This document shows positions 6,771 to 36,623 of a stretch of DNA of 64,000 nt, piece by piece (the first letter of the stretch is position 1; each line of letters begins with the position of its first letter). A model generated the notes under the pieces. It saw only the letters and a list, made by a program, of their open reading frames with translations. It did not search any database and was not told the DNA's origin. The position numbers and the translations under genes are program-made. Source of the stretch: an uncultured Subdoligranulum sp. (GTDB taxonomy: Bacteria; Bacillota; Clostridia; Oscillospirales; Ruminococcaceae); assembly GCA_945830575.1 (NCBI GenBank), contig CALZZE010000009.1, positions 1 through 64,000 of the forward strand, written 5' to 3'.

Positions 6771-7538
6771 ATGCAATCGGATTGGATTCCCACATGGGAG
6801 CGCCTGCCGGACAAAGCGGGCCTGTATCTGGTCACGCGCCGGAACCTCATCGGGGTGACGATGCTGCTGTACAAAAACAATCACTGGTTTTCCTACGGAA
6901 TAGAGGAAATTTTGTGGCCGGGCTATCTGATAACGGCATGGCAGCCGCTGCCCGCACCGTGCCGGGAAATGCCGCCGCTAAGGATTCCCGAACTTGACAC
7001 GGCGGCCGCTCTGACCTATCTCAAAACGCGCAGCCGGGATTTGGAACGGTACGACTGGCTGATGAAACGTGTCTGTCAGGTGGATGTTTCCCAAGACCGG
7101 GAGTTTCAGCGCGTTTTTGATGCGTTTTATCGCGTCAGGCGCAACGAGACATGGCGCGGTGAGTACTATGACCTGTTCGAGAGTCTGAAAACAGCGGAAC
7201 CTCGCTGCTTTTCTCTGGTTTTTGAGGAACTGTACAGGCGCACCGGCAATCAGGAGGTGTCCTTCGCCAGCAAGCTGCTTGCTACGCTGGAGCCGGACCA
7301 GCCCATCTGGGACAGCGCGGTGCTGCGTGCCTTACACCTGTCCCCGCCGGCGGGCACCAGCAGATATTACCGGCAGGATGTGTGCGACCTCTATGCCCGC
7401 ATCGAGGATTGGTACAGAACAATGAAAAAATCCGCCACCGGGAAACAGTGGATACGGGCGTTTGACCGGGCGTTCCCGCAATACCGGCATTTCAGCGGCA
7501 CAAAGAAACTGGATTTCCTGCTCTGGGGGAACCGCTGA
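6771..7538 (+). CDS. hypothetical protein, DUF551-like N-terminus (weak resemblance)
   Basis: ATG behind GGGAGGCAAATT; N-term WIPTWERLPDKAGLYLVT resembles DUF551; remainder unrecognised. Confidence 0.5.
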   Translation: MQSDWIPTWERLPDKAGLYLVTRRNLIGVTMLLYKNNHWFSYGIEEILWPGYLITAWQPLPAPCREMPPLRIPELDTAAALTYLKTRSRDLERYDWLMKRVCQVDVSQDREFQRVFDAFYRVRRNETWRGEYYDLFESLKTAEPRCFSLVFEELYRRTGNQEVSFASKLLATLEPDQPIWDSAVLRALHLSPPAGTSRYYRQDVCDLYARIEDWYRTMKKSATGKQWIRAFDRAFPQYRHFSGTKKLDFLLWGNR

Positions 7539-7617
7539 AAAAGTCTCCTGTCCGGCGACCACAGCCGCCCGCATTTGTGATAGACTGTTCTCACAAACAA
7601 ACAAGGAGGACCTGACC

Positions 7618-10029
7618 ATGCTGGGTGCTATTTTTGGCGACATTGTTGGCTCGGTGTACGAGTTCAACAACACGAAAAACTACAACTTTCCGCTGCTGAG
7701 CGACCGCTCCCGCCTCACCGATGATTCCCTCATGACGCTGGCGGTGGCAAAGGCGCTGATGGAAACCTGGGGACAGCCGGACGATGCCATCCGCGCCGCG
7801 CTGGTGCGGGAAATGCGGGACTTCGGCCGCCGCTACCCCAACGGCGGCTACGGCGGGCGGTTCCGCCAGTGGCTGGTCTCGGATGACCCGCAGCCCTACG
7901 GCAGTTTCGGCAACGGCAGCGCCATGCGGGTGTCCCCGGCGGGCTGGCTGTACGGCACCATGGAGGAGACCCTCCACGCGGCCATGCTGACCGCCGAGGT
8001 GACTCACAACCACCCGGAGGGCATCAAGGGCGCACAGGCCATTGCGGCGGGTATTTTTCTGGCCCGCAGCGGACAGGACAAGGACGCCATCCTGAGCTAT
8101 CTCGCCGGGAAGTTCGGCTATGACCTGACCCGCACGCTGGACGAGATCCGCCCCACCTACGGCTTTTATGAGATTTGCCAGAAATCTGTTCCGGAGGCCA
8201 TCCGCGCCTTCTATGAGGGCACCGACTACGAGGACGTCATCCGCAAGGCCGTGGCGCTGGGCGGTGACAGCGATACCATCGCCTGCATGGCGGGGGCACT
8301 CGCGGAGGCATATTACGGGATGCCGGAGACTTTCCGGAAAGAAGCCCTTCACCGTATGGATGCCTTCCAGCGTAGCGTGGCAAAAGAATTTCATGACTTC
8401 TACCGCACCCATTCGGGAAAACCGGCGGCTTCTTCCCCGACGGACTCTGTCAATGTGTCGTCTGTGGAAACTGCAGAGTCTCACGGAGAAAAGAAGATCG
8501 CCAAAAAGAACGATTGGAAAACATTTCCGATGCCTGCACAAAAGGATACGTTCCTGCTCAGCCGCCATTTCTCAAAACAGGAACTAAGCGCTCTTCAATG
8601 CGGCCATATCCCCGAAGCGATGGAGGATAAATGGTTCTGGTACATGGAAGGCAATACGTTATTTGCACACCGCAGCTGGACAGGGTATTGCATTTATATT
8701 CTTGAATTGAATGAACAGACAGGAATCCACAAGGTGACGGTGAACCGTGACCCGGAACAATATCAGGAAAAACAAATCAAGGAGGATGAAAACCGGCTGA
8801 ATGAGCTGCTCAACTGGTGGACGAAGCCTGCGTTTGATTTTTACCATGAATGGCTTTCTGAAACGCTGGATTCACTGCAAAAGAAAAAGGCTGCAAAACA
8901 GAGTCCTCCGAAGGTGGTTCGTTTTCATAAGCTGAACGAGGACAATGCATGGCTGAGCAACTGGTATCCCAGCACGTTTATTCTGGATGGGAAAAGCTAC
9001 TGCTGTGCCGAGCAGTATCTGATGGAGCAGAAAGCTGTTTTGTTCGGGGACATTCAGATGGCGGCATGCATCATGCAGACCGACGACCCTGCGGAAATGC
9101 AGAAGCTCGGCTGGGGTGTGGCGGGATTCGATTCCCATATTTGGGACGGCCGGAAACAGCTGATTCTGTACAAGGCACTGTGCGCAAAGTTCCGGCAGAA
9201 TCCGGAGCTTCAGAGCCAGCTCCTGGACACAGGAAAAGCACTGCTGGTGGAGTGCGCCAGAAGCGACCGCATCTGGGGAGCCGGTCTTGGAATGCAGGAT
9301 GACAGGGCGGATTCTCCCAAGACATGGGCAGGACAAAATCTGCTGGGCCTGACGCTGATGGCTGTCCGGGAGGAGCTGGCAGAAGAAAACACGGCATCGG
9401 ATGACATCCGCATTTATGACACCATTCCGGCCGGCAGTGTCATGCCCTCGTGGGGAGAACATGGTAATCATATTTTCTGGTTTTTGCCGACTGTACATGA
9501 CGGTCAAAAGCTCATCCGACCGGACGGCACATACACTGTCTTTGAACAGAAAAATCGGGAGTATTTTAATGATGACCAGGCGCATGAAGGATGGCAGAGA
9601 GCCAACCTGCTGATGGATGAGTATGAAATTCGTGATGCGACAAGTTTTGGATGTTCCATGGCGTCCACACTGATTGCAAGTGTCTATGATCGGGCGAACA
9701 ATAAAAAAGTCCTTTATTTGTTCTATACCTGTCAGAATGCTGTAGAAACTGCATACCCTTACATGCCCAAAAGTGTTGAAAAGCAATGCCGCAAAAATGT
9801 GGAGCGTTTTTATGCCAACCCCGGATTGCAGGCGGGATGGAACTCTTTCATTCTGTACCCGGTGTGCATAAAAATCGTAGAAGGCGATTCCAAGTTCTAC
9901 CCTGTGTTCCTGGGCGAACTGGGAAATAACGAGACCTGTCTGAGGATTCATTCCAGCGAGTGGGGAAGGATTTCCTTGGATAACAAGCAATCCATTCAGG
10001 AGGCTTTCCGCAACGAGCATCTTTGGTGA
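7618..10029 (+). CDS. multidomain ADP-ribosylglycohydrolase - unknown domain - NADAR - unknown C-terminal domain
   Basis: ARG: MLGAIFGDIVGSVYEFNN, LTDDSLMTLAVA, LGGDSDTIACMAGALAEAYYG; NADAR (YbiA-like): FHKLNEDNAWLSNWYPSTFILDGKSYCCAEQYLMEQKA ... WGAGLGMQDD; RBS AAGGAGGACC. Confidence 0.88.
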   Translation: MLGAIFGDIVGSVYEFNNTKNYNFPLLSDRSRLTDDSLMTLAVAKALMETWGQPDDAIRAALVREMRDFGRRYPNGGYGGRFRQWLVSDDPQPYGSFGNGSAMRVSPAGWLYGTMEETLHAAMLTAEVTHNHPEGIKGAQAIAAGIFLARSGQDKDAILSYLAGKFGYDLTRTLDEIRPTYGFYEICQKSVPEAIRAFYEGTDYEDVIRKAVALGGDSDTIACMAGALAEAYYGMPETFRKEALHRMDAFQRSVAKEFHDFYRTHSGKPAASSPTDSVNVSSVETAESHGEKKIAKKNDWKTFPMPAQKDTFLLSRHFSKQELSALQCGHIPEAMEDKWFWYMEGNTLFAHRSWTGYCIYILELNEQTGIHKVTVNRDPEQYQEKQIKEDENRLNELLNWWTKPAFDFYHEWLSETLDSLQKKKAAKQSPPKVVRFHKLNEDNAWLSNWYPSTFILDGKSYCCAEQYLMEQKAVLFGDIQMAACIMQTDDPAEMQKLGWGVAGFDSHIWDGRKQLILYKALCAKFRQNPELQSQLLDTGKALLVECARSDRIWGAGLGMQDDRADSPKTWAGQNLLGLTLMAVREELAEENTASDDIRIYDTIPAGSVMPSWGEHGNHIFWFLPTVHDGQKLIRPDGTYTVFEQKNREYFNDDQAHEGWQRANLLMDEYEIRDATSFGCSMASTLIASVYDRANNKKVLYLFYTCQNAVETAYPYMPKSVEKQCRKNVERFYANPGLQAGWNSFILYPVCIKIVEGDSKFYPVFLGELGNNETCLRIHSSEWGRISLDNKQSIQEAFRNEHLW

Positions 10030-10054
10030 GAATGGGTTAAAGGATGGAGAACCA

Positions 10055-11599
10055 ATGATGATGACCATCAAACAAAAATCCGAAGTACCAACGCAGGCCA
10101 ACCCCTGCCGTACACTGGAACGGGCCATTCAGACCTGGCAGTTGCTTGGGGAGAGGGCAGAACCTGGCATTGTGCTGGCGCACGTGGCGCAGGCCATTCA
10201 ATGGAATCAGCCGGTCCTTGTCCCGGTCTGCCCGCCGGAGGAAATGCTGGAGCAGCTGAACGCAGATATCGTCAAAGTCGGAGAACCGCTGGAAAACAGC
10301 GGGTCCATGAGTCTCCGGGTCAACATGCTGAATGGCGAAGCCCCGGATGCCTGCCAGTTCCCGGTGTTCACCAGCCGGGAGGCTATGGAGAACGGCCCGG
10401 CCGCCTCCTCCATGGAATTGCCCCTTCAAACGGTGGTGAAGATGGTGCTGGACGGCGACAACTGCGAGGGCATTATCCTCAATCCCTTTGGCCAGGCGCT
10501 GTTCCTTCCCAGACAGATGCTGGAGCCGCTGTCGTATGTCAGACCGTCTTCCCGCATCTACCTCATGGAGGCAGACATTACCAAAGTGGGCGCGGATGCC
10601 ATTGTCAACGCGGCCAACCGGACGCTGCTGGGCGGCGGTGGTGTGGACGGCGCCATTCACCGCGCCGCCGGGCCGGATCTGCTGGCGGAATGTCGCGGTC
10701 TCCACGGCTGCAGCACCGGCGAAGCCAAGGTGACCGGCGCGTACCGGCTGAATGCGGACTGCATTGTACACACGGTCGGCCCCATTTACAGCGGCAGCCC
10801 GGAGGACGCAAAACTACTGGAACAGTGCTATAAAAACAGCATGGATGCGGCATGGGAGTGTAATTGTCAAACCGTTGCGTTCCCCTCAATCTCCACCGGC
10901 GCGTATGGGTATCCCATTGACAAGGCGGCGAAAATCGCGCTGCGCACCGTCCGAAACTGGCTGTGGGAGCACCCGGATACCTTCATGGATGTGTATTTCT
11001 GCTGTTTCAGCAAGGCCGACCTGATGGAATACCAGAACGCCATAATTCAGCTTCCAGATGTCCCACCAGATGTCAGGTGGACAAACAAAGGCGTGGATGC
11101 CTCCGAAAAGGAGGATTACAAAACAGCCGTGCGGTATTTTAAGCGTGCCGCAGCCCGCGGCGACTCGGTTGCGCTGAGCAATCTGGGAATCTGCTATAAC
11201 CTTGGACACGGCATTACAAGGGACAGAGAAGAAGCACGAAAATGCTGGGTGAAGGCAGCGGTCCAAGGAGATGTAGTCTCGATTTGCCAATTGGGAGATT
11301 TTTGGATCACTGAAAGTCTGGAGAACAGGACGGACTTGAGTAAAGCAATCGAGGAAGCTTGGGTGTTTTATCGCACAGCGTACGATTTATGCCAAGCGGG
11401 AATTAACAGAGAAGATTATCCAAATGTCTGCCTGCGGTATCTGCGTTACGGCGAAGGCCGCCTGAGCCGCCGCGAGCTGGCCCATCTGGCCGGGGAGGCC
11501 GTGGCAGGCTTCCAGAAACGGCTGGAGGAGGGCGATCCTTTCGCAGAAAAGGCTCTGGAAGAAGCAAAAGAGTATTGCCGGAGGTATTGCGAAACATGA
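10055..11599 (+). CDS. SseB-like N-terminus + macro domain + Sel1-like repeats
   Basis: macro: IYLMEADITKVGADAIVNAANRTLLGGGGVDGAIHRAAGPDLLAECR ... AFPSISTGAYGYPIDKAAKIA; Sel1-like: GDSVALSNLGICYNLGHGITRDREEARKCWVKAA. Confidence 0.85.
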   Translation: MMMTIKQKSEVPTQANPCRTLERAIQTWQLLGERAEPGIVLAHVAQAIQWNQPVLVPVCPPEEMLEQLNADIVKVGEPLENSGSMSLRVNMLNGEAPDACQFPVFTSREAMENGPAASSMELPLQTVVKMVLDGDNCEGIILNPFGQALFLPRQMLEPLSYVRPSSRIYLMEADITKVGADAIVNAANRTLLGGGGVDGAIHRAAGPDLLAECRGLHGCSTGEAKVTGAYRLNADCIVHTVGPIYSGSPEDAKLLEQCYKNSMDAAWECNCQTVAFPSISTGAYGYPIDKAAKIALRTVRNWLWEHPDTFMDVYFCCFSKADLMEYQNAIIQLPDVPPDVRWTNKGVDASEKEDYKTAVRYFKRAAARGDSVALSNLGICYNLGHGITRDREEARKCWVKAAVQGDVVSICQLGDFWITESLENRTDLSKAIEEAWVFYRTAYDLCQAGINREDYPNVCLRYLRYGEGRLSRRELAHLAGEAVAGFQKRLEEGDPFAEKALEEAKEYCRRYCET

Positions 11600-11729: not shown

Positions 11730-11758
11730 CTGACAAATCCTGCCGAAAGTGTTATACT
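11730..11758 (+). promoter_or_regulatory. sigma70-type promoter for the candidate ncRNA
   Basis: CTGACA (11730-11735), 17-nt spacer, TATACT (11753-11758). Confidence 0.65.
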
Positions 11759-11764
11759 ATAATT

Positions 11765-12507
11765 GGTACCTTGAAAACAGAATAGACGTAACTATCCGAA
11801 AAGGATAGATGTCCACAGAAGTGTCCACCTCCACCGGGTGGATGGCACAGGAAAGAAGTACAAGAATGCAACCTTTCCGATTACCTTTGGCTGAGTATTG
11901 CCGGCAGAAGGTAGAACAAGAAGACACGCCCGTGCCTTATGAGAGAGGGTACGGAAGGGCAGAGAATAGAACCTGGCCTATGGGTAAGGCATATCCCGCG
12001 CAGCCGAGAGTGCAGCGGCTGGTGGACGCAACAAGGGAATCGGGAGCTCACCTCGAAGTGAGACCCGTCCAGCGGAAGAAAAAAGCTGTTACGATGCGGC
12101 TTGCTCTGAAACTGGTGATCGAATGGAACAGTAGAAAGCCGAACGGCATCATGATGTGACAGGAGCCGGCAGGAATCCGGCACCGGGTGATTTCCATGAG
12201 ATCAGAAGCGGCAAAATCCTATGTACGATGCAATACTTTGAGCAACCCACGACCGCCTGGCGCAGGCGTAAAATGCGCACTGAAGGACGGAAATACCGTT
12301 CAATCGGGACCGACATGATGGAGTCCCGCCATGAACAGGCCATAGAGCACTGTTCCTGCAAAATGTGAATTTGAAAACAGTTGCGGGAGGAGTGTACCCT
12401 TTTTTAAGGAAACGGCAGGTTTTCTGTACCGGAAATGATGAAAAAAGTGAAGGTCAACCTTTATTTGTTGAGCCGGACTTTGTGAAGCAAAGTCCGGCTA
12501 TTTTTTT
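11765..12507 (+). ncRNA. candidate large structured non-coding RNA (~740 nt)
   Basis: Promoter upstream, intrinsic terminator at the end, no convincing protein, and many nested helices: CTATCC/GGATAG, GGAAAG/CTTTCC, TACCTT/AAGGTA, CCGTGCC/GGTACGG, CAGCCG/CGGCTG, CTCAC/GTGAG, GCCGG/CCGGC, CGGGAC/GTCCCG, GAACAG/CTGTTC. Confidence 0.55.
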
Positions 12508-12508
12508 T
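12471..12508 (+). terminator. intrinsic terminator
   Basis: AGCCGGACTTT-GTGAAGC-AAAGTCCGGCT followed by ATTTTTTTT. Confidence 0.85.
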
Positions 12509-12550
12509 GAAATGAGGAATCGCGTTCAAGGACAAACCATACAGGCAGCG

Positions 12551-12585
12551 AACGGCGTACAGAAAACAGTACGCCGTTTTTTTAT
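12551..12585 (+). terminator. second intrinsic terminator
   Basis: AACGGCGTAC-AGAAAACA-GTACGCCGTT followed by TTTTT. Confidence 0.75.
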
Positions 12586-12673
12586 TGCAAAATCCGTCAA
12601 GGGGGTGGTGGCAATGACCCGATAAACAAACAGACCGAGGAAGAACCGTGATTTTACAGACAAGGGAGGTACA

Positions 12674-13990
12674 ATGAGCAGAACAGAAAAAGCCAATCAG
12701 CCGGAGTGGCTCTCCGGGCAAAAAATCAATGAAGCTGTGTTTGTTTCGCAGTTTCTGCAGCGGCATCCCATGCTTTGCTGCAAGGGCGTCCTCTACGATG
12801 AAAACGGCATTGTTCCGGAGGAGGATGCCATCCAGAAAGAAATCTACGAATTGGTGAAAAACCATGTTGCCACCGGCCTTGCCAACAAATGCCGCAAGCT
12901 GCTGGAGGCCATCCGGCTGGCCTGCCGGACCGAAGAACTGCCGATCCAAACGGACCGGATTCATGTGGAAAACGGAACGCTGTATCTGGACGGACGGTTC
13001 GAGCCGGTCCGGGAAATCTGCCGCAACCGGCTGACGGTCCGGTATGATCCTGCCGCGCCGCTTTGCAGTCACTGGCTGAATTTTCTGATTCAGCTGCTGG
13101 AGCCGGAGGACATTCCTGTGCTGCAGGAGTATCTGGGGTATCTTCTCGTTCCCACCAACAGGGCGCAGAAAATGCTGATGATTCTGGGGCGGGGCGGCGA
13201 GGGAAAATCCCGCATCGGCCTGCTGCTGCGCGCGATCTTCGGATCGAACCTGTACGTTGGCAGCATCCAGAAGCTGGAGAAAAACCGCTTTGCCCGTGCG
13301 GATTTGGAATCCATGCTGGTCATGGTGGATGACGATATGCAGATGTCGGCGCTTACCGAAACCAGCACACTGAAAACCATCATCACGCTGGAAGGTAAGC
13401 TGGATCTGGAGCGCAAGGGCCAGCAGAGCTATCAGGGGGATGTCTATGCCCGGCTGCTGGCGTTTGGCAACGGCTCCCTGCAATCGCTGTACGACCATAC
13501 CGACGCGTTTTACCGCCGCCAGCTGATCATGGTGGCAAAGCCTGTCCATCGGCAGGAAAACGACCCGAACCTCATCGACCAGCTGGTGGCCGAGAAGGAG
13601 GGAATCTTCCTCTGGATGCTGAAGGGGCTGCGCCGGCTGATAAACCAGAAATTCCAGTTCACCTCCAGCCCGCACATGACCAGCAATCTTCAGCAGGCCA
13701 TCGCGGAAGGCAACAATGTGGTGGAGTTTTTGCAATCAGAAGGGTATCTCCGTTTCGTGGAGAGGGACGCCAGCGCCACCAGCAGAGAGCTGTGCAGCTG
13801 CTACCAACGCTGGTGCAGAGACAATGCGGTAAAACCGCAGTCCGATAAAACCCTGATCTCCTATTTGAAAGAGCACAGCGGGGAATACAATGTGGTTTAC
13901 ACCAACAAGATCCCCATTGGGGGAGGGCGCACCGCCCGCGGATTTCTGAACGTTGGCGTGGAAGATCCCGGCTGGGACGCGTACACTTGA
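12674..13990 (+). CDS. P4/D5-like phage/plasmid primase-helicase
   Basis: Walker A-like LMILGRGGEGKSRIGLLLRAIFG, LVMVDDDM, ARLLAFGNGSLQSLYDHTDAFYRRQLIM. Confidence 0.75.
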   Translation: MSRTEKANQPEWLSGQKINEAVFVSQFLQRHPMLCCKGVLYDENGIVPEEDAIQKEIYELVKNHVATGLANKCRKLLEAIRLACRTEELPIQTDRIHVENGTLYLDGRFEPVREICRNRLTVRYDPAAPLCSHWLNFLIQLLEPEDIPVLQEYLGYLLVPTNRAQKMLMILGRGGEGKSRIGLLLRAIFGSNLYVGSIQKLEKNRFARADLESMLVMVDDDMQMSALTETSTLKTIITLEGKLDLERKGQQSYQGDVYARLLAFGNGSLQSLYDHTDAFYRRQLIMVAKPVHRQENDPNLIDQLVAEKEGIFLWMLKGLRRLINQKFQFTSSPHMTSNLQQAIAEGNNVVEFLQSEGYLRFVERDASATSRELCSCYQRWCRDNAVKPQSDKTLISYLKEHSGEYNVVYTNKIPIGGGRTARGFLNVGVEDPGWDAYT

Positions 13991-14470: not shown

Positions 14471-14922
14471 GAAGAGCGGACGCACAGTGCGCTGTGCGTC
14501 CCCGCTTTTCCGGGAAGGGCGGAAAAAGGGCCTCAGGTCACCACTTTGGCTCCATGGGCAGGCGGGTTTTCTGACGAAACAAGGTCGTATTTTTCCAAAA
14601 GGTCACCACAATGGAGCTAAGATTTCGCCGGATGCCGCCAAAAGGCCGGTTTGGCTCCAATTTGGAGCTAAGTTGGTGCGCTTTCGTCACCAAAAATGAC
14701 CGGGTTTGCCCTGTCCGATTGTGAAGCAGGAGAAAGCAGCGTGTCATTTTGGTCCCCACGCTGCCCGCACACCGGCCCGCAATGCGGCCCGGCGGGGATT
14801 CAGGTGTGTTTCATTTTGGAGGAATTGGTCGCTTTTCAAAAAATAGTGTGTCATTTGGGCCAAAATCGACAATAAAACAACGAAATAACGGGAAAGAGAA
14901 TGTATCAGAACAGGAGGTGCTT

Positions 14923-16113
14923 ATGGCAAGCATTAAAAAACTGAACAATCGCAAGTATAAAATTACCGTCTCGAATGGTTACCGTCCCGACGGTCGGAAA
15001 ATCTGCCGCTCGAAAACCATTCAGGTTCCCAAATCCGTTGCGCCGCGGGGCATTCAGCAGTATGTTGCCCACGAAGCGGAGGAACTGGAACGAACCTTCC
15101 GCGACGGCTACTCGGAACAGGCGGAAACTCCCTTCGGGGAGTACGCCCGCCGCTGGATGGCCCGGCAGCATCATCTGAAGCCTTCCACGGTAGCTAACTA
15201 TCGTCTGATGCTGGAGGCCTGCTGCGAAGTCATCGGGAAGATTCCGCTGTGCAAGCTGCGTCCGCTGACCATCGAGAATCTGGTGGAGCAGCTGCGCCAG
15301 CGCACCACCCGCACCGGAAAACCTCTCTGCGAAAATACGGTGCGCAAATACCTGTCCGCCGTGTCGGCGGTGCTCAGCGACGCCAAACGCAACGAACTGA
15401 TTGCCCACAACCCGGCCCGCATGGTGTCGCTGCCGCCGCTGGAACGTCCCCGTCAGGCGATCCCCACCATGGAGGAGATGCGCAGCTTTCTGACTGCCGC
15501 GATGGAGGAACCGCTGGTTTACCGTGTGTATTTTTTCATGGACCTGATGACGGCGGCGCGCCGCGGGGAGCTGTGCGCGCTCACCTGGGCGGACATCACG
15601 GAGCACACCATCACCATCTCCAAGTCCCGCAGCTACGTCAAGGGCATGGGGCTGGTGACGGGAACCACCAAGAACGGCAGGGCGCGGGTGCTGAGCAACT
15701 GTGAACTGCTGGTCAGCCTGCTGAATGGTCTGCGCATGAGCTACGAGTGGAACGGCATCACCGTCACGCCGCAGACGCCGGTGTTTCTGAACCGGCAGGG
15801 TAAGCCCCTCAATCCCGACACCTTCTCCCGGCGCATTCGCAAGGTCTATGACCGCTGCGGCTTGTCGGAGCAGTATCACCTGCACACGCTGCGCCATTTC
15901 GCCGCAACGCTGTGGCTGCAAAGCTCCATCAGCAAGCAGGTGGTGGCGGACGCGCTGGGCCACGGGGACACCGCGTTTCTGGAACGCACCTACTGCCACC
16001 CGCAGCTGGAGTCAAAGCAGCAGGCGGCACAAAAATCCATGCAGCTGGTGCAGTCCAACACCAACTTGATCAATCGCGCCAAAGGTGTGGAGCAGTGCTT
16101 GTCCATTTGGTAG
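14923..16113 (+). CDS. tyrosine recombinase/integrase (copy 1)
   Basis: AARRGELCALTW; HLHTLRHFAATLWLQ; ALGHGDTAFLERTYCH; RBS CAGGAGGTGCTT. Confidence 0.88.
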   Translation: MASIKKLNNRKYKITVSNGYRPDGRKICRSKTIQVPKSVAPRGIQQYVAHEAEELERTFRDGYSEQAETPFGEYARRWMARQHHLKPSTVANYRLMLEACCEVIGKIPLCKLRPLTIENLVEQLRQRTTRTGKPLCENTVRKYLSAVSAVLSDAKRNELIAHNPARMVSLPPLERPRQAIPTMEEMRSFLTAAMEEPLVYRVYFFMDLMTAARRGELCALTWADITEHTITISKSRSYVKGMGLVTGTTKNGRARVLSNCELLVSLLNGLRMSYEWNGITVTPQTPVFLNRQGKPLNPDTFSRRIRKVYDRCGLSEQYHLHTLRHFAATLWLQSSISKQVVADALGHGDTAFLERTYCHPQLESKQQAAQKSMQLVQSNTNLINRAKGVEQCLSIW

Positions 16114-16201
16114 AATCTTCGATAAAACGATAGACTTTCCCATTGCTTTGGAGTATGATGTCGTTACTGAAACCAGCGCAGCAGAAAGGAGCGCATCAGC
16201 A

Positions 16202-17374
16202 ATGGCATCCATACGAAAACGAGCCGAAAACAGTTATCTGATTGTTGTGTCCATGGGGTACGATTATCAGGGAAAACGCAAAAAGCCTGTTCAGAAAACC
16301 GTTCATCCGCCGGAGGGGCTGACCCCCAGGGCAAAGGAGAAATGGCTGAATGAACAGGCTTTGCTGTTCGAGAGGGAAGTGAAAAGCGGCCCGGAACCAA
16401 AGGACCGCAGCATCACCTTTGCCGCCTATGTGGAGCACTGGAAAAAGGACATCATGCCGGAAAAGCTGTCCGTCAGCACCCAGCGCCGCGCCCAGCAGGA
16501 TCTGCAGCGGATCCTGCCGGAGCTGGGCAGGGTCAGAATGACCGAGCTGGACCGCCCCAAGGTGCGGGAGTTCTGCAACAAGATGCGCAAATCGCCCAGC
16601 GCCAAGGGCGGCATCATCTCGGAACGGACGGTGTCGGGCATCCACTCCACACTGTGCGGCATCCTCAGCGATGCGGTGGAGGAAGGCTACATCAGGGACA
16701 ATCCCGCATGGCGGGCCTTCAAGCCGAAAACCAAGCGCAAGGATATCTACGCCGCTGATGAGGATCAGGCCAGACAGCTGATCGAAGCGCTGGAGCAATG
16801 CAGCATCAAGCATGAGACCTTTTACAAGCTGGTGCTGGCCACCGGGATGCGCCGCGGCGAGGCCTGCGGCCTGACCTGGAGCGACATTGACTGGCGGGAG
16901 CATTCGGTGCATATCCACCGCAACGTGGTGAAGGTATCCCACATGGATACGGTGGTAAAGGAACCCAAAACCCGCGCCGGTGACCGGGTGGATTATCTGT
17001 CGCCGGAGATGATCAGCCTGCTGCGGGAGTATCGGACCTTCTGTGAGGAACACTGTCTCAACTACTCGCTGCGCCCGCTGAGCGAGGAGGACTTCCTGTT
17101 CCGGCGGGACAACGGCCTGCCTATGACGCCCAACAGCTTTACCTACCGGTTCAAGCTGATTCTCAAGAAATACGGCCTGCCCCCGCAGCTGACCATCCAT
17201 AGCCTGCGCCACACCTGCGCCAGCCTGCAGATCGCCCACGGAGTGGATGTACGCACCGTGGCGTCCAATCTGGGACATTCCCAGACCAGCACTACGCTGG
17301 ACATCTACGCCCACGCTTTCGATAAACAGCGCCGGGAGTCCCAAAAGACGCTGGAGGATGTGCTGGGGATCTGA
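16202..17374 (+). CDS. tyrosine recombinase/integrase (copy 2)
   Basis: ATGMRRGEACGLTWSDID; IHSLRHTCASLQIAHG; NLGHSQTSTTLDIYAHAF. Confidence 0.92.
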   Translation: MASIRKRAENSYLIVVSMGYDYQGKRKKPVQKTVHPPEGLTPRAKEKWLNEQALLFEREVKSGPEPKDRSITFAAYVEHWKKDIMPEKLSVSTQRRAQQDLQRILPELGRVRMTELDRPKVREFCNKMRKSPSAKGGIISERTVSGIHSTLCGILSDAVEEGYIRDNPAWRAFKPKTKRKDIYAADEDQARQLIEALEQCSIKHETFYKLVLATGMRRGEACGLTWSDIDWREHSVHIHRNVVKVSHMDTVVKEPKTRAGDRVDYLSPEMISLLREYRTFCEEHCLNYSLRPLSEEDFLFRRDNGLPMTPNSFTYRFKLILKKYGLPPQLTIHSLRHTCASLQIAHGVDVRTVASNLGHSQTSTTLDIYAHAFDKQRRESQKTLEDVLGI

Positions 17375-17446: not shown

Positions 17447-20400
17447 TCACCTTTTCTGGGACTCACCGGAACCCTTTGAGTAGGGGCTCAGATCCAGAAA
17501 CAGCTTTTTCAGTGCTGCCGGGTCATCACATTCCCGGAACAGATACTCCAACAATTCTTCCTGCCGGGCCTGCCCTAACGTAAGCCGATACAGGGACAAT
17601 ACTTTGATCAGACGTTCATAATGGATCCCGTCCCTGCTCATGGGATACATGGGAACGATGCGCTCTATTTTGACCTCCTGCTCTTCCCCAAAGCACCAGA
17701 ACGGCACCAGATCAGACTGCCCGGGCTTTTTCCCGGCCTGTGCAGCCGCAAACATTTCTGTCCAGACATCATTTTCAAACTGGATAGAGCCATATTTCCG
17801 GGCAATATTCTGCCGGATGGCCAGACACTTGAAACGGTTGACTCGTCCTTCCCTCTGTTCCAGATCAATGGGATTTCCGGGCAGGTTCCAGTGCATGATT
17901 TTCCGGCAGTATTGATGGAAATCCAGGCCTTCCTGCCCAATGGAGGTGGAGGCCAGTACAAATGGCCGCAGCGGGCTGTTGAATGCGCCCCGGATGCTGT
18001 TTTTCCGGTCAGCCTTTTTTTCGTCGTCACCATCGGTGACAAAACCGACCGCATAATGGGCCCGCATCAGATTGCGCTTGCGCTCACCATGGATCCTGCT
18101 CTGAAAGGTGCGGAAGGTGTCTACCTCATAGGATGCGGTATGGATACGCAGGTCATTCAGCATGATGTTCTGCACCCTGCCGTTTCGGGTGGCCTCGTCG
18201 GTGAAACCGACGCTCTCCCGCACCAGATGAAGATATTCATCGAACATGGCCTGAAAGCAGCCATCTTTGCAGTACAGAAGCACATCCTGCCAATGGGTGT
18301 TGTCATCGGCTTTCTTTGCATGGTATTGATCGGCGGCCAGTTCCACAATGGCGGTGGATTCGGTGGTGTTGAATACATTCAGAAATACCTTCGCCAAGGA
18401 GGTGGCGTACCCCACGTTGCCGCCGTTGGAGCGGTAAATGCAGACGGCGGGAGAACCCAGCACCATATCCGTCAGCGTGGCGATCAGGTCCTCCGGCATC
18501 CGGCCCAGCTCCAGCCTGTCCCCCAGACTGATATACTGCTTCAGGCGTTCCAGATGTGCCAGAAACGCTTTGTTTCCCCGGTCACTGCTGAGAGCGTCCT
18601 CCACATCGCTGCCGGTGCTGTGCAGGGAACGCTCCAGTTCGGAAACCCAGCTGTTTACAAACGCTGCGCCATCCATCAGCATGGGTGCCAGATAGTACCA
18701 CCGTGCGTCCTCCGGCCCGGCGGTAGTTTTCTGGTATGGTCTGAGCGTCTCCAGTCTGGCCCGCAGCCCGGTTCGGATCTGCCGTTCGATGTCCGCAAGG
18801 CTCATCCGGGCATTCATGGCGGCAATGGGCTCGTACAGAGAGGACAGTGCGGCGGAAGGATACAGCAGACAGAATAAACTCATCCGCTGGGGTTCTCCGT
18901 TGAACAGAGAAAATTGCAGGCGATGGTAGGGGTAGCGATACTTTGACGTGTACCGAAGATTCTTTTCCTCCACGCCCTGGGCTTGCCGGCCCAGCCGTCC
19001 CACGGTGCGGCGCTCCGCTTCATAGGAGATCAGGGACCCGATCATTCTGGGAACCATCTCCCAGGCGGAGAACACCAGAATTTTGGAAAAGTTGTGGCTG
19101 TTGCGGTAGGCTCCCTGCAAGGTATAATAGGGTCTGCTGGGCGGCACCCAGAGATACAATTCCGCGCCGCCCTCAAAGGCGGCCTCTTTCAGCTTTTCCA
19201 ATCGGGCATTGACGGCGGGAAGTTTCCGGTAGGCATTTACCTGACGGGGATTGACCCACAACAGATCGTTGGCGGCGGCATCAGTTTCCTCCGGGTGCGC
19301 TTTGAAATAGGCTTCGATGTTCTGCTTCACCTTGTAATTTGCGGTGAAGGACAGAACATAGGGGCAGCTTTTCACATAATCCGGAGGAAAAGCGGAATGG
19401 GAGCCCGTCGCTTTCAGCAGATTCCCGGCGGCCAAGTAGGAGGCAATATCCAGTTCTGTCACGGTCAGCGGATGCTTTACGCTGCTGTCATCGGTGTAAT
19501 CGCCGGAATCCATCACAGAGATGCGCTCGGTGCGGCACACCCCGGCATACATGGCATCCTCCGCGGCGTGCTTTACCTGAATCAGGGCGGCACTGCCGGC
19601 GGACATCTCATGCAGCGACACGGAATAATCCGACCAAACCCGGTGAAATTCCCGGGAATGTCCGGCGAACAGAAAATCCATCACCTGCAGAAATTCCGAG
19701 TAATGCTCGTCCATCTGCGCATCATCGATTTCCTCCAGCGTGGAATACAGTTTGTACGGCGTGGCGGACAGCAGCAGGATCCGGGTGTCCCCGCCGCCCA
19801 GAAACTTCCGGGCGAGGATCCCGGTCTCGGACTCCTGATGGGAGTTCAGCAGGAATTTGAACCGCTGGAATTCGTCCATGATGACCAGATCGGGGTTCAG
19901 CATTCCGGTGCTGATGCGGGCAAACATGATGCGCAGGGCGTTCAGGATCTCCACATCTTTGTAGGGGGAGGTCCCGTTTTCACGCTTGGTCAGATGCTCT
20001 GTCAGCCTTGCAAGGATCGGCCGCTCCCGGTCATAGTCATAGATGCTTTGGATCACAGAGGCGGGATAAGCGCCCTGCGTTTTCTTTTCGCAGGAGATCA
20101 CCTTGCTTTCGTACCAATCCTTTGCCCAGCCGGTCCAGGCGCTTGCTGCGTAATAGATAAAGAATTTTTCCAGCTGCTTCCGGTGCGCCGCAAGCTCGGG
20201 GACACGGGTCAGAATGGCAAACATCAGCGCCCTCTCGCTGACGGTACCGCCGCCGTTGGTCATCTGGAAGGAGGTGCCGGGGGTCAGGGGGATCAGCTGA
20301 ATAAAGCCTTCCCGCAGGGCTTCATCGGATTCCTGCTCGGCAATTTTCAAATGGAGCATGGACAGCCGCGTGTCGGATACACCCTCGATCCGGGCAGAGT

Positions 20401-20683
20401 CCGACACTTTCAGTTTTTGGATATTCTGGCCGGCAATGCTGGAATTGGAGCAGATGTAAACCACCTTCAGAAGGTCGTCGCCCTCCTCCAGCCGCAGGCG
20501 GGCTGTTTTCACAATGGCGCCCCGGGCCACCAGCGTCTTTCCCATCCCCACCTCATCGGCAACAAGGACTCGGTTTTGCCCATGGCGGAACAGGTAGTCG
20601 ACCCGTTCCACCGTTGCGCGCTGGAAGTCCTTCAGCCCCTGCATGGTCCAGGCTTCCACCGCGTCGATCCTGAATTTTGCCAT
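17447..20683 (-). CDS. SF2/SNF2-like helicase
   Basis: Walker A VLVADEVGMGKTLVARGA; DEAH-like VIMDEFQRF; LLLSATPYKLY; C-terminal STSIGQEGLDFHQYCRKIMHWNLPGNPIDLEQREGRVNRF. Confidence 0.88.
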   Translation of the reverse strand: MAKFRIDAVEAWTMQGLKDFQRATVERVDYLFRHGQNRVLVADEVGMGKTLVARGAIVKTARLRLEEGDDLLKVVYICSNSSIAGQNIQKLKVSDSARIEGVSDTRLSMLHLKIAEQESDEALREGFIQLIPLTPGTSFQMTNGGGTVSERALMFAILTRVPELAAHRKQLEKFFIYYAASAWTGWAKDWYESKVISCEKKTQGAYPASVIQSIYDYDRERPILARLTEHLTKRENGTSPYKDVEILNALRIMFARISTGMLNPDLVIMDEFQRFKFLLNSHQESETGILARKFLGGGDTRILLLSATPYKLYSTLEEIDDAQMDEHYSEFLQVMDFLFAGHSREFHRVWSDYSVSLHEMSAGSAALIQVKHAAEDAMYAGVCRTERISVMDSGDYTDDSSVKHPLTVTELDIASYLAAGNLLKATGSHSAFPPDYVKSCPYVLSFTANYKVKQNIEAYFKAHPEETDAAANDLLWVNPRQVNAYRKLPAVNARLEKLKEAAFEGGAELYLWVPPSRPYYTLQGAYRNSHNFSKILVFSAWEMVPRMIGSLISYEAERRTVGRLGRQAQGVEEKNLRYTSKYRYPYHRLQFSLFNGEPQRMSLFCLLYPSAALSSLYEPIAAMNARMSLADIERQIRTGLRARLETLRPYQKTTAGPEDARWYYLAPMLMDGAAFVNSWVSELERSLHSTGSDVEDALSSDRGNKAFLAHLERLKQYISLGDRLELGRMPEDLIATLTDMVLGSPAVCIYRSNGGNVGYATSLAKVFLNVFNTTESTAIVELAADQYHAKKADDNTHWQDVLLYCKDGCFQAMFDEYLHLVRESVGFTDEATRNGRVQNIMLNDLRIHTASYEVDTFRTFQSRIHGERKRNLMRAHYAVGFVTDGDDEKKADRKNSIRGAFNSPLRPFVLASTSIGQEGLDFHQYCRKIMHWNLPGNPIDLEQREGRVNRFKCLAIRQNIARKYGSIQFENDVWTEMFAAAQAGKKPGQSDLVPFWCFGEEQEVKIERIVPMYPMSRDGIHYERLIKVLSLYRLTLGQARQEELLEYLFRECDDPAALKKLFLDLSPYSKGSGESQKR

Positions 20684-20693
20684 ATGCAGCCCC

Positions 20694-22508
20694 TTATTTC
20701 AGCCTCAGTGTTTTCCTGAATGTGTCATACAGCTCCCGGAATTCTCCGGGGACGATGTCTTCTTTGGTGATCATTCGCAAAAGATACCCGATCTCGCGGA
20801 GCTTTTCCGGCTCCTCCAAAGCGGTTTTCAGCATTTTCTCATACAGTGCGGGCAGACTGTCATGACTGTTGTTCCAGCTGCCGGTGCCGCCTGCAGGCCG
20901 TTCCTCCAACAGAGAGAGCAGATAGCTGTCCTCCAGAACAAACGCCACATATTCCACAAAAGTGCGCTTGTCCTTGACCACGCTGTTCACAATGGCGTTT
21001 TCCCGGTCGGCGGGGATCCCTGTGGTGGGAACCATGAGAATACGCTCCACAGCCATCTCTCCGTCGGAAACTCGCAGCATAAAAAATTCCGAGACCTGAA
21101 GCAGGTCCAGCTGCGGAAACAGCATTTCATTTTCCAGCGGCAGGAGAACATTGCGCCGGAACGGCCTGATGGCAAGGGTGCCCTCCGGGAGATGCCCACT
21201 GATGGAAAGAGAAACATCGTATTTGCCCTCCCGTTCCGTGACGGCGGCTTGCATCGGCAGACGGCAGACCGTCTTGATGATCTGTTCCAGCCGGTCGGCG
21301 GTTTCCAGCCGGTCATCGGGGATGGGATCTGTCACCTTGGACAGCTCAAAGGGATTCTGCGGGTTATCCGCTGCGCCGCAGAACAGGTCCCGGAGCAGCG
21401 CTTCGCCCTGATAGTACCTGCTTTTGGTGCGCAGCCGAATCATCATTTCCACGTTGCGATTCACTGCGGCCTGTGTCGCGTTCATGGAACCAAGGTACAG
21501 ATCCACATCGGAATTCTTCCTTCGCAGATAGAGTTTCCCGTGAATGTCCTGATTCTGTTTTTCGGCGGTATCATCAGAGACAGCTTCCTCGCCGTCCACG
21601 ATGTCATCTTTCAAAGTATAGATCCGGAATTCACTGCACTGCCCGGCGGTGATCTTGGACAGCTCGGATTTCCGGGTGATCAGCGTGCGGGTGGCTCCGG
21701 TCAGTGAGTATCCGGACTGATTCCAATGTTCGATGAGACTGCCGGAGACAAACGGAGAAACCGCCACCAGTTCATGAAAACGGCGGCAGAAAAGCGGGTC
21801 CTGATGCATATTGCAACCGCCGGGGCCGATGCCCAGCGGCATGATCTCAAATTCATCACCGAACTCCTTGCTGCCGGTGGTAAAACATACCCCCGCCAGC
21901 GCGTCACGCAATGTGCGCAGAGCGCTTCGTTTGGTGCGGGCGTTCTGCACCGTGGGCCTGACCTGTGCCCGCAGAAAGTCCAGAAACGCCATCAGCGGCT
22001 GCGTTTTTTGTGCTGTTCCGGCGGTTTTGGAGCTATCCATCGCAAAGCTGACATCCCAGCTTCGGTCAAAGGTCAGATTCCTGCTCAGAACCGCAAACCG
22101 ATAGTGAAACTCGCCCTGCCCGTTGACATATTGGAGCAGCCATGTCTTAGGGTGGAAGGCCGGATACTGCCGGCCACCCCGCCCTCGGGGCAGCGCCACC
22201 GGAACAAGGATCTTTTCCAGCAGCAGGCTCAATGCGCTGGGCGTGCCGGGCATTTTGATCTGCCCCGCTTCGCAGAAGACCAGCAGCTTTTCCGATACTT
22301 TCTGCAAAGCATTCAGCGTGCTCACCGGGTTCTGAAGCAGGGCACTGTCGGTCTCCCCGGCCAGACCAAGGGACAGACATACCGCTGTCAGCGCCTCCAG
22401 ATCCAGAGAATAGGTGGTGCCGACGGCAAAATGCAGCGTATAGCCATCCGGCGGCAGCAGCAGGGAACTGTAGCTCACGCGGTCCTTTGTGTCATTGGTC
22501 CTGAACAT
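20694..22508 (-). CDS. phospholipase D-like domain protein
   Basis: HGKLYLRRKNSDVDLYLGSMNATQAAVNRNVEMMIRL is a PLD-type HxK...N motif; start chosen at MFRTNDTKDRVSYSSLLLPP. Confidence 0.75.
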   Translation of the reverse strand: MFRTNDTKDRVSYSSLLLPPDGYTLHFAVGTTYSLDLEALTAVCLSLGLAGETDSALLQNPVSTLNALQKVSEKLLVFCEAGQIKMPGTPSALSLLLEKILVPVALPRGRGGRQYPAFHPKTWLLQYVNGQGEFHYRFAVLSRNLTFDRSWDVSFAMDSSKTAGTAQKTQPLMAFLDFLRAQVRPTVQNARTKRSALRTLRDALAGVCFTTGSKEFGDEFEIMPLGIGPGGCNMHQDPLFCRRFHELVAVSPFVSGSLIEHWNQSGYSLTGATRTLITRKSELSKITAGQCSEFRIYTLKDDIVDGEEAVSDDTAEKQNQDIHGKLYLRRKNSDVDLYLGSMNATQAAVNRNVEMMIRLRTKSRYYQGEALLRDLFCGAADNPQNPFELSKVTDPIPDDRLETADRLEQIIKTVCRLPMQAAVTEREGKYDVSLSISGHLPEGTLAIRPFRRNVLLPLENEMLFPQLDLLQVSEFFMLRVSDGEMAVERILMVPTTGIPADRENAIVNSVVKDKRTFVEYVAFVLEDSYLLSLLEERPAGGTGSWNNSHDSLPALYEKMLKTALEEPEKLREIGYLLRMITKEDIVPGEFRELYDTFRKTLRLK

Positions 22509-23700
22509 GGGCAGCCCCCTCTCCCCGGCAAATATCCAGAATGATGCGTTTGGCGCTGGGAAAGCGGTAATCCAGCCATCGTCCGCCGATCCACGCATCG
22601 TTGGCAAAGTCTTCCCGCCTGCAAAGCTTGGCCCGGCTGCGGCTCTTGATCTCAATTTCCCGCTCCACCAGGATTCTGTCTGCGGTATCTGTATCCCCCG
22701 CCAGAAAAGCGGTCTGCAGATTGGTCAGGAACCGCCGCAGACGAAAGTTGGAGATGTGAAGCGTTTGCAGCACATCGTCAATTTCCACCGCCATCATGTG
22801 GGGCATGTTGTCTTGTATCCGCTGCCATTCTGTCACCGCGTCCCGGTTCTGGCCGTTGGAAAGGAGAAAATTATAGCGCACACGGGCAGCGTACACCAGA
22901 CGGTTGAAATCGCAGGCCAGCGCCATGGTGCGGCGCAGCTCCTCCGGCACAGAATCACGCAAATCTTCATTGATCTCTTCAAAAGAGCGGTATTTTGTCA
23001 CATCGACACGGTTGCGGAGCAGATACCCCAACAGGGAGGAAGGAACACGGGTTTCGATTTTCTGCCGTAGAAACGCTGCTTCCGTAGGTGTCAGATAGAT
23101 GGACAGACCGGTACGCCAATCCGAATAGTAGTCATCCGGCACAGAGAACAGCTGCGCTGCTATATCCCTGCCGGCATCTGCGTCATCCCGTTCCGCATCG
23201 GAGGCATCGTTCCGGTTGCCCATCGCAGCAGCCTGCGTTTGAGTCCGCAGCAGAAGCGAGGTTTTCAAAAGTTCCGGAATCGTCAGATTCTGGGTGCAGA
23301 TTCCATAGGTACGGATGCCGTTCCAATAAATGCTGGAAGGTTTACGGGCTACCCAGCCTTTTGGCAGCACCCGCTGACCGATGATGCCCTCCTCCCCGGG
23401 GCAGTTCTGCATCAAGCGGATGCCGCATGCCTTTTCTTCCTGGTCAATTCGGCGCATTATTTTGTGCAGATCGCTGCCGTACCGGCCTTCTGTGGCTTCT
23501 TTCACCACATAGGGAACGATCAGAAAATATTTTGCGCTGGTCTGAACGGTGGAGGTTCCGGGAAAGAACAGGTTCGCAAAAGCGTCACGAACCAGCCCGA
23601 TGCCGATCTCGTCCACTGCACCCTGCTCCTGCAGCAGATTTATCACATCGAGAACCTTTTCTCTGTCCTGTCTGGAAAAATCTACCCATCCCAACTGCAT
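22492..23700 (-). CDS. DUF6361-like family protein
   Basis: N-term MQLGWVDFSRQDREKVLDVINLLQEQGAVDEIGIGLVRDAFANLFFPGTSTVQTSAKYFLIVPYV recognised as this family. Confidence 0.7.
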   Translation of the reverse strand: MQLGWVDFSRQDREKVLDVINLLQEQGAVDEIGIGLVRDAFANLFFPGTSTVQTSAKYFLIVPYVVKEATEGRYGSDLHKIMRRIDQEEKACGIRLMQNCPGEEGIIGQRVLPKGWVARKPSSIYWNGIRTYGICTQNLTIPELLKTSLLLRTQTQAAAMGNRNDASDAERDDADAGRDIAAQLFSVPDDYYSDWRTGLSIYLTPTEAAFLRQKIETRVPSSLLGYLLRNRVDVTKYRSFEEINEDLRDSVPEELRRTMALACDFNRLVYAARVRYNFLLSNGQNRDAVTEWQRIQDNMPHMMAVEIDDVLQTLHISNFRLRRFLTNLQTAFLAGDTDTADRILVEREIEIKSRSRAKLCRREDFANDAWIGGRWLDYRFPSAKRIILDICRGEGAAHVQDQ

Positions 23701-24528: not shown

Positions 24529-26928
24529 ATGTTAGGAGCGATTATCGGCGATATCGTTGGCTCCCGATTTGAAAGGAATAATATCAGGACGAAGCAGTTT
24601 ACCTTTCTTACACACGAATGCTTTTTTACGGACGATACCGTAATGTCGATAGCCGTTGCAAAATCAATTCTGGAAAGCAGAAACATTGAGCAATTGGGAG
24701 ACAACACTGTTCGCTGTATGCAGGAAGTTGGGCGGCCATATCCTGATTGTGGGTACGGCGGTTCTTTCTATAATTGGATGTATTCTGCGAAACCGGAACC
24801 ATACAACAGCTTCGGTAACGGGGCGGCCATGAGGGTAAGTGCGTGCGGTTTTGCCGCTTCTTCTGTGGAAGAGGCCATTGCTATGTCCAAAGCTGTTACA
24901 GCGGTGACGCATAACCATCCGGAAGGTCTGAAGGGTGCGGAGGCTGTGACCGTGGCGCTGTATATGGCCAGAGAAGGAAAAAGTATTTTTGAAATCCGAG
25001 ATCACATAGATCGTCATTACTATCCCATGGCTTTTACGCTGGATGGCATTAGAGACACGTACACATTCAACGAAACCTGCCAGAATACTGTGCCTCAGGC
25101 ATTGATGGCTTTTTTTGAATCAGTTTCGTTTGAGGATGCTATTCGCAATGCCATCAGTATTGGTGGTGACAGTGATACTCTTGCGGCAATCACAGGGGGA
25201 ATTGCGGAGGCGTATTATGGAATTCCTGAAAGCATTCGAAAACATGCGTTGACTTTTTTGGATGAACGGCTTTTGAAAATCCTGAATGAGTTTGAAGACC
25301 GTTATGGAATCTATATCGGAAAGGAAAATCGAAAGACTGTGAGTAAAATGAAGAACAAACAGGTCGTGAAGGAGAAGAATCCGATGTTGGATGCAGTTCT
25401 TGCAACAGAAAAAGCAGTTCATTCAGATGATATTCTGGCGGAAGAAACTTCTGCGAATCAACTATTCAATCATCTTTATGAGGCCTGTAATATCCTTCGT
25501 GGGCCCATTGATCAGGACGATTACAAAAGCTATGTGATACCGATTCTGTTTTTCAAGCGGATTTCTGATGTGTACGATGAGGAAACCGCAGAGAATGAGC
25601 AGAAGTACGGCGAGGATATTGAGTTTTATCCAGAGGATGAGCTTCACGCATTTGTCATTCCGCAGGGGTGCCATTGGCGTGATGTGCGCAATGTGAGTGA
25701 GGATGTTGGCAAGGCGATTGTCGATGCCATGATGGGTGTTGAGACGGCCAATCCGGACACATTGGCGGGGTTGTTTTCGTCCTTTGATGATGCAAACTGG
25801 ACAGACAAAAACAAACTGACGGATGAAAGGCTGAAAAATCTGATTGAACACATGTCGTCGTTGCCTGTTGGCAACAGGAATTATTCGGCTGATGTGATGG
25901 GCGATGCCTATGAATATCTGATTAAGAAATTTGCGGACATGAGCAAAAAGAATGCCGGAGAATTTTACACACCACGTTCCATTGTCAGGCTTATGGTGCA
26001 GATGCTGCATCCAAAGTCCGGAGAATCGGTGTATGATCCGGCCTGCGGCACTGGGGGCATGCTGATTGAAGCAATCCGCAGTATGGACGATGTAAAACGT
26101 TCCTACGGGAAAATTTACGGTCAGGAGAAAAATCTGTCCACCTCGGCAATCGCCAGAATGAACTTGTTCCTGCATGGTGCGAAGGAATTCAAAATTGTGC
26201 GGGAAGACACGCTGCGCAAGCCGATGTTTCTTCATCATGGACAGCTGCAGCAGTTTGACTGTGTGTTGGCAAACCCACCCTTTGGTCTGGACCGTTGGGG
26301 CGCAGAAAGTTTTGCAAATGATCCGTATGGACGGAATCTTTGGGGAAGCCCTACGGATTCCAATGCGGATTTTGCCTGGCTGCAGCACATGGTCAAATCC
26401 ATGCGGCCTGGAAGCGGCAGATGCGCGGTAGTTATGCCTCAGGGCGTTCTGTTTCATGGCGGGCGTGAAGGAAGCATCCGGCAGAAGATGATTGAGAGCG
26501 ATATAATCGAGTGCGTGGTCACACTGGTCGGCAATCTGTTCTATGGTGCAGGCGTATCGGCATGTATTCTGTTCATGAACAATAACAAGCCGCTTGCGCA
26601 TCGCGGAAAAATCTGCATGATTGACGCGACCGGCATTTACACAGCGCAGCGTGCCAAAAACATCATGACGGAAAAGGATACGGACGAGGTGTATCGCCTT
26701 TGGCAGAACTACACGCCTGTGATGGACAAATGTGCGGTTGTGGATCTGGAGACGATTGCCGCGAAAGGGTATACGCTGTCGGTGAATACCTACATCGAGA
26801 AAACACCCGTCGCTGCATTGGACCCGAAAAAGGTGCGCTGTGAATTTATGGCAGCTCTGCAGGAGGTCCGTGACAGTGAGGCCGAATTGAAAAAGCTGCT
26901 CCGGGAAGGAGGATACATCGATGGCTGA
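24529..26928 (+). CDS. ADP-ribosylglycohydrolase-HsdM fusion (type I DNA methyltransferase subunit)
   Basis: Single 799-aa ORF: MLGAIIGDIVGSRFERNN, FTDDTVMSIAVA, IGGDSDTLAAITGGIAEAYYG, then HsdM: FFKRISDVYDEET, YDPACGTGGMLIEA, FDCVLANPPFGLDRWG. Confidence 0.92.
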   Translation: MLGAIIGDIVGSRFERNNIRTKQFTFLTHECFFTDDTVMSIAVAKSILESRNIEQLGDNTVRCMQEVGRPYPDCGYGGSFYNWMYSAKPEPYNSFGNGAAMRVSACGFAASSVEEAIAMSKAVTAVTHNHPEGLKGAEAVTVALYMAREGKSIFEIRDHIDRHYYPMAFTLDGIRDTYTFNETCQNTVPQALMAFFESVSFEDAIRNAISIGGDSDTLAAITGGIAEAYYGIPESIRKHALTFLDERLLKILNEFEDRYGIYIGKENRKTVSKMKNKQVVKEKNPMLDAVLATEKAVHSDDILAEETSANQLFNHLYEACNILRGPIDQDDYKSYVIPILFFKRISDVYDEETAENEQKYGEDIEFYPEDELHAFVIPQGCHWRDVRNVSEDVGKAIVDAMMGVETANPDTLAGLFSSFDDANWTDKNKLTDERLKNLIEHMSSLPVGNRNYSADVMGDAYEYLIKKFADMSKKNAGEFYTPRSIVRLMVQMLHPKSGESVYDPACGTGGMLIEAIRSMDDVKRSYGKIYGQEKNLSTSAIARMNLFLHGAKEFKIVREDTLRKPMFLHHGQLQQFDCVLANPPFGLDRWGAESFANDPYGRNLWGSPTDSNADFAWLQHMVKSMRPGSGRCAVVMPQGVLFHGGREGSIRQKMIESDIIECVVTLVGNLFYGAGVSACILFMNNNKPLAHRGKICMIDATGIYTAQRAKNIMTEKDTDEVYRLWQNYTPVMDKCAVVDLETIAAKGYTLSVNTYIEKTPVAALDPKKVRCEFMAALQEVRDSEAELKKLLREGGYIDG

Positions 26929-36251: not shown

Positions 36252-36286
36252 AAAATTCCGCGTATCACGTAGATACGCGGAATTTT
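36252..36286 (-). terminator. terminator downstream of tRNA-Arg
   Basis: AAAATTCCGCGTATC-ACGTA-GATACGCGGAATTTT, perfect 15-bp stem. Confidence 0.75.
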
Positions 36287-36362
36287 GGTGCGGCTGACAG
36301 GATTCGAACCTGCGGCCTTTCGGGTCGGAGCCGAACGATCTATCCAGCTGAGCTACAACCGC
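36286..36362 (-). tRNA. tRNA-Arg (anticodon CCG), CCA encoded
   Basis: Reverse complement GCGGTTGTAGCTCAGCTGGATAGATCGTTCGGCTCCGACCCGAAAGGCCGCAGGTTCGAATCCTGTCAGCCGCACCA; anticodon loop CTCCGAC. Confidence 0.97.
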
Positions 36363-36365: not shown

Positions 36366-36581
36366 TCTATGAAAACCGGAAAATCCGGTTTTGCCAAAAG
36401 GAAAAATTAGTAGTCAAATAGTAGTCTGAAACCGAAGTATGCTACCGCCTGCATGAGAAGAAGTAGTCTGAAACAGGAGCGGGAAAATCCCGGAAATGAG
36501 CACAGGTAAGCGGTAAATGGGGAACCGCGCCGGACTACTGAAACGGCGGAGTTCTCTGACAGAGGAAATGCGTTCAGCCAC

Positions 36582-36623
36582 GTCGGAGCCGAACGATCTA
36601 TCCAGCTGAGCTACAACCGCACA
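36582..36623. repeat. 42-nt tRNA-Arg segment, copy 2 (truncated tRNA; att-like)
   Basis: identical 42 nt; the rest of the tRNA is absent. Confidence 0.95.

Follow-up and report, generated by a model that had tools for sequence, protein, structure and literature searches.

A predicted large structured RNA with a 5' boxA motif in a mobile-element island of an uncultured Subdoligranulum sp.

In a window of 64,000 nucleotides from an uncultured Subdoligranulum sp. (GCA_945830575.1, contig CALZZE010000009.1, positions 1–64,000, forward strand), which is the whole stretch of DNA analysed here, we identified a 744-nt region that opens with a ribosomal-type boxA motif, has no conserved coding frame and is oriented towards a primase-helicase gene. 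We think that this region most likely encodes a real structured non-coding transcript, as part of a leader reading, and the ~740-base RNA probably either regulates the replication gene of the island or functions as a free-standing RNA. Above the latter we tentatively favour a boxA-antiterminated structured leader, or attenuator, of the element's replication operon.

Predicted transcript, folding and coding potential

The predicted RNA and its parts were placed as follows (L003 denotes the homologue MT838362.1).

11730–11758, + strand: promoter-like site CTGACA-17-TATACT with extended TG, 10/12 consensus matches
~11765, + strand: predicted transcript start, 6–8 nt past the −10 box
11765–12508, + strand: predicted structured RNA, a 744-nt transcript between the promoter-like site and the intrinsic terminator
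11765–11784, + strand: boxA-type antitermination motif GGTACCTTGAAAACAGAATA, matching the 16S-23S spacer motif
11765–11994, + strand: conserved 5' domain of 230 nt, common to MT838362.1 (L003:3318–3550)
11785–11813, + strand: hairpin 1, GACGU..UAUCC/GGAUA..AUGUC, folding alike in L003
11821–11848, + strand: hairpin 2, with the inner stem but only half of the outer 4-bp part conserved in L003
11850–11878, + strand: hairpin 3, stem conserved, loop 12 nt longer in L003
11882–11913, + strand: hairpin 4, in L003 with two pairs changed from CG to UA (both sides), two one-sided changes and a shorter arm
11930–11954, + strand: hairpin 5, CCGUGCC/GGUACGG, invariant stem and variable loop
11957–11978, + strand: hairpin 6, inside the invariant block GGUACGGAAGGGCAGAGAAUAGAACCUGGCCUAUGGGUAAGGCA
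11995–12470, + strand: 3' part, further hairpins predicted, no homologue found
12001–12021, 12024–12070, 12165–12181, 12254–12268, 12305–12328 and 12333–12355, + strand: hairpins of the 3' part from the perfect-hairpin scan
12471–12508, + strand: intrinsic terminator, 13-pair stem, 3-nt loop, then 8 T

The minimum free energy of the 744-nt predicted transcript was −260.3 kcal/mol (z −5.5 to −5.7), a value as low as which was reached by none of 100 shuffles. Counting perfect hairpins of at least 5 bp yielded 10, where dinucleotide shuffles gave 5.5 ± 2.0 and reached 10 in 5 of 200 cases; the initial annotation had reported at least nine. With a minimum stem length of 6 bp the count was 7, compared with 1.4 ± 1.1 (0 of 200 shuffles as many). 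The nested pair GGACG...CTCAC/GTGAG...CGTCC described there was likewise recovered, at 12024–12070. Folding energy by itself does not prove a structured RNA, since a length-matched coding control gave z −4.3. By region, the 5' domain (11765–11994) and the 3' end (12390–12508) gave z-scores of −3.5 and −3.6, and the middle (11995–12390) was ordinary in folding (z −1.3). Structure in the 3' two-thirds is a single-sequence prediction, since no homologue covers it.

At the borders of the region, the strong terminator claimed previously was found as a 13-pair stem followed by 8 T. The promoter elements were also present as claimed; a promoter scan of 3 kb found one such site with 1.8 expected, which alone is not above chance. 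The site gains weight because the boxA motif starts ~11 nt past the −10 element.

None of the ORFs in the region matched Pfam or PHROGs, the two main plus-strand ORFs had no match in NCBIfam, and the main ORFs had none in plasmid six-frame translations. A 116-aa ORF (11809–12159) had as its sole match in the phage collection the DNA homologue MT838362.1 itself, where the frame is partly common to both sequences and is broken by stops. Since this ORF carries stops while a DNA block of 44 nt (GGTACGG...AAGGCA) remains identical between the region and its homologue, conservation concerns nucleotides, not protein. The conserved protein in 11860–12159 that the initial annotation had named as evidence against an RNA was thus not found, and its reading of the region as a large non-coding RNA with much structure is supported, the island around it being of a mobile or defence type.

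A single homologue and no catalogued RNA family

The only homologue in the collections searched was MT838362.1, a contig of 5.4 kb from human faeces that is recorded as an unverified 'bacteriophage', with 80% identity over 11765–11994; cmsearch recovered it at L003:3318–3550 with 167.6 bits (E 1e-49). The similarity sets in at the predicted transcript start, with GGTACCTTGAAAACAGAATA as its first bases. Independent folds of both sequences gave closely matching hairpins, six of them alike. In alignment A3, which was taken from the covariance model as MAFFT had misaligned the variable hairpins, 97.9% of 95 pair cells held standard pairs, compared with 35–45% when partners were slid by 1–3 columns. 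The two sequences differ by two both-sided and four one-sided pair changes, and hairpins 3 and 4 vary in length. Covariation, proposed earlier as a check, is thin in this two-sequence alignment, its score being reached by 132 of 500 shuffles; the pairing kept in the sole homologue supports the structure and does not prove covariation. What the RNA does we infer from these two sequences.

The L003 copy interrupts an IS21-type transposase gene, which is broken there, and its first base lies no more than ~3 nt from the transcript start predicted for the window RNA. A terminator-like hairpin of its own comes after the copy, then a ligase-like gene that has a separate promoter-like site; no primase-helicase gene adjoins the copy. 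An empty IS21 site was sought using the L003 flanks and only a 68% relative was found, so the exact junction is not fixed. The start position could reflect RNA copied into DNA, a suggestion to which a single case without an empty site gives little weight. In the 3' flank of the copy, L003:3610–3634 holds a 25-nt repeat, TGCTCAACTTGTTATTGCAATTTGC, which is perhaps an insertion-sequence end; it also occurs alone, at 3 copies in the window's genome, and in a same-genus genome, and was rejected as a part of the RNA.

Covariance models R1 and R2 found no third member in ~840 distinct genomes of the class, order, family and genus (an estimate, some genomes having been drawn more than once); two weak R2 matches from the class, order and genus search lay in apparently protein-coding DNA and were rejected. 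BLAST against 390 class genomes, plasmids and phages returned MT838362.1 as the sole relative. A 25-nt match in genome G083 was a chance A/T-rich stretch, a single exact pattern gave 3 matches in genome contigs, all chance, and seven exact-pattern scans of viral contigs gave no real match.

Size, structure and mobile-element context had led to a comparison with ROOL and GOLLD, which as a family assignment did not hold. At the gathering threshold, no family among the 4227 in Rfam matched the region, a relaxed scan (E up to 10, relaxed filters) returned nothing credible, and the homologue likewise had no credible family. The models named in the initial annotation (ROOL, GOLLD, OLE, group I and group II introns, RNase P and tmRNA), together with HEARO, gave no covariance-model match at those models' sensitivity; a weak match to HDV-F-prausnitzii (15.7 bits, E 4.1) was absent from the homologue and was rejected. 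No tmRNA was found at the region. Genes for GOLLD and ROOL often lie close to tRNA islands; the single tRNA of the window is 24 kb from this RNA, and no tRNA array adjoins it. Membership of any of these catalogued families is therefore scarcely credible to us, in spite of the shared context. The likeness to the ornate RNAs ROOL, GOLLD and OLE lies in size class and dense structure, and ROOL and GOLLD too are found on mobile or phage DNA (PMC12286853). The window RNA differs from them by its lack of an Rfam match and of a nearby tRNA array and by its two members only, and its conserved part is at the 5' end rather than, as in GOLLD, at the 3' end (PMC12286853).

The boxA motif in rRNA spacers and mobile-element leaders

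By its sequence, GGTACCTTGAAAACAGAATA is an antitermination signal, to which Nus factors would be expected to bind, and it lies near the predicted 5' end of the transcript, as a boxA-antiterminated transcript would have it; this position suggests a leader or antitermination role. The initial annotation had not noted the motif. The motif (G)TACCTTGAAAACNGAATA is identical in its core to that in same-genus 16S-23S spacers, and so resembles the rRNA leader and spacer boxA (NusB/NusE). Pattern CTTGAAAACNGNAT occurred 5–8 times in each of three genomes, complete or nearly so, from the genus and family, the reversed pattern never, and many of the sites in same-genus and same-family genomes fall in 16S-23S spacers. 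The draft genome that contains the window yielded no 16S gene, and this RNA is its only site for CTTGAAAACNGNAT. Unlike rRNA boxA, the window motif would head a non-rRNA mobile-element transcript; boxA outside rRNA has precedent (PMC5725501).

Non-rRNA, non-coding boxA sites also head mobile-element leaders elsewhere in the genus and family (L052, L056, L057, L058 and L066), which share with the window RNA the order of boxA, non-coding leader and then replication or recombinase genes. As read from translations, L052 precedes likely replication or conjugation genes, L056 and L057 precede an AAA-type ATPase, and L058 and L066 precede a serine recombinase, their leaders being structured and several hundred nt long (L058:1501–2241 and L066:1501–2396; z −3.8 to −4.9). 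The L066 leader contains a pemK RNA (RF02913). Other occurrences lay apparently within coding sequence (L053, L054 and L065) or 2.3 kb downstream of L052, seemingly in the same element (L055). A covariance search of L052, L055, L058 and L066 gave no match to the window RNA.

A further parallel is found in processive antitermination leaders such as the LoaP-dependent dfn leader, where an operon is preceded by a terminator and an RNA element that together allow regulated readthrough; LoaP uses a UNCG hairpin (PMC12691694). The window RNA has boxA and is far more elaborate.

Neighbouring genes and competing explanations

The following features surround the predicted RNA.

7462–11599, + strand: ADP-ribosylglycohydrolase-NADAR fusion frame, then an SseB-macro-Sel1 protein, directly upstream of the RNA
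12550–12582, + strand: inverted repeat GGCGTACAGAAAACAGTACGCC with T-run, from the hairpin scan
12674–13990, + strand: P4/D5-type primase-helicase (DUF5906), the gene that the leader may precede
14749–16113 and 16085–17374, + strand: two tyrosine recombinases, downstream of the primase-helicase
17447–23700, − strand: ZacC, ZacB and ZacA matches (PADLOC models), a defence-type locus adjoining the tyrosine recombinases
24529–29547, + strand: type I restriction cluster; one 799-aa frame carries an ADP-ribosylglycohydrolase domain ahead of HsdM
36286–36362: tRNA-Arg(CCG), with a partial copy of its 5' half at 36580–36622, 260 nt apart

Under the leader reading, the transcript would start at ~11765 with boxA inside its first 20 nt, and boxA would, by analogy with rRNA operons, recruit NusB/NusE so that RNA polymerase resists early termination. 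The RNA would fold into the conserved 230-nt multi-hairpin 5' domain, followed by ~500 nt of variable sequence and the terminator at 12471–12508, where termination would release a free ~740-nt RNA and antiterminated readthrough would give the operon mRNA. The leader would thereby serve a replication and integration module consisting of the P4-type primase-helicase and then the two tyrosine recombinases. The steps that we infer here are transcription itself, binding of Nus factors, readthrough and regulation of the helicase gene by the RNA. We favour this reading because of position, orientation and the parallel with the other boxA leaders: the RNA ends 165 nt before the start of the primase-helicase gene, lies directly upstream of it in the same direction with the terminator between them, and a scan for consensus promoters found no further one in 12508–12674. 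Both the identity of the boxA core with genus and family spacers and the structure kept in the single homologue add to this.

Against it, the upstream regions of 29 primase-helicase relatives did not contain the RNA, and the flanks covered for relatives in 21 other genomes showed no sign of it, so that it is not conserved before homologous helicase genes; the L003 copy, followed by its own terminator-like hairpin, is not beside such a gene either. The boxA complex acts mainly against termination by Rho, and an intrinsic terminator with 13 pairs may be too strong for it. The length is far above what an antitermination signal needs, and the promoter match does not exceed chance. The strong terminator before the next gene and the homologue without a helicase gene, which appears to end at its own hairpin, are what a free-standing large structured RNA rests on, a somewhat less probable but serious contender that would act in trans as a particle, with or without protein, in OLE, ROOL or GOLLD style and travel with mobile elements, with boxA only securing full-length synthesis. 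The invariant 44-nt block between hairpins of varying length and the whole-molecule z of −5.7 fit such an RNA, but only its first 230 nt are common to the homologue, the middle folds no better than shuffles, and two members leave family-wide conservation unproven. We regard it as rather unlikely that the RNA founds a new class of large RNAs of mobile elements, in which the 230-nt 5' domain headed by boxA would be portable and the RNA would have its own function in trans.

Its extreme rarity, the placement of the L003 copy within a broken IS21-type transposase fragment and the partly shared frame of the 116-aa ORF could also be accounted for by a remnant: a former gene or mobile-element segment in decay, whose hairpins would be incidental and whose boxA would be left over. 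We consider this improbable, as 98% of the 95 pair cells are kept, two pairs changed on both sides and the 44-nt block is identical, the ORF carries stops in L003, and promoter-like site, boxA, hairpins and terminator appear in working order. More improbable still is a replication RNA, a primer or copy-control RNA (RNA II-like) transcribed toward an origin before the primase-helicase gene. The RNA does point at the GTAC-type repeat at 12550–12582, which the initial annotation had not listed and which resembles inverted repeats upstream of the helicase gene in three of the eight relatives examined (L016, L017 and L022) and is perhaps an origin- or operator-type element of that gene rather than part of the RNA, but relatives with the same helicase have no such RNA, and P4-type primases synthesize their own primers.

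If confirmed, the leader reading would add an unlisted large bacterial RNA and would mean that mobile elements of gut Clostridia use the ribosomal boxA to protect long non-coding leaders; whether Nus factors take part in the control of mobile elements would then become a testable question. Because the motif heads several other mobile-element leaders in the same genomes, a promoter with boxA outside rRNA operons provides a handle for finding more such RNAs.

Elsewhere in the window, the two genes directly upstream of the RNA form an ADP-ribose-processing pair, and in the type I restriction cluster another HsdM-type protein and a specificity subunit come after the 799-aa frame. The partial copy of tRNA-Arg(CCG) may have been left by integration into the tRNA gene.
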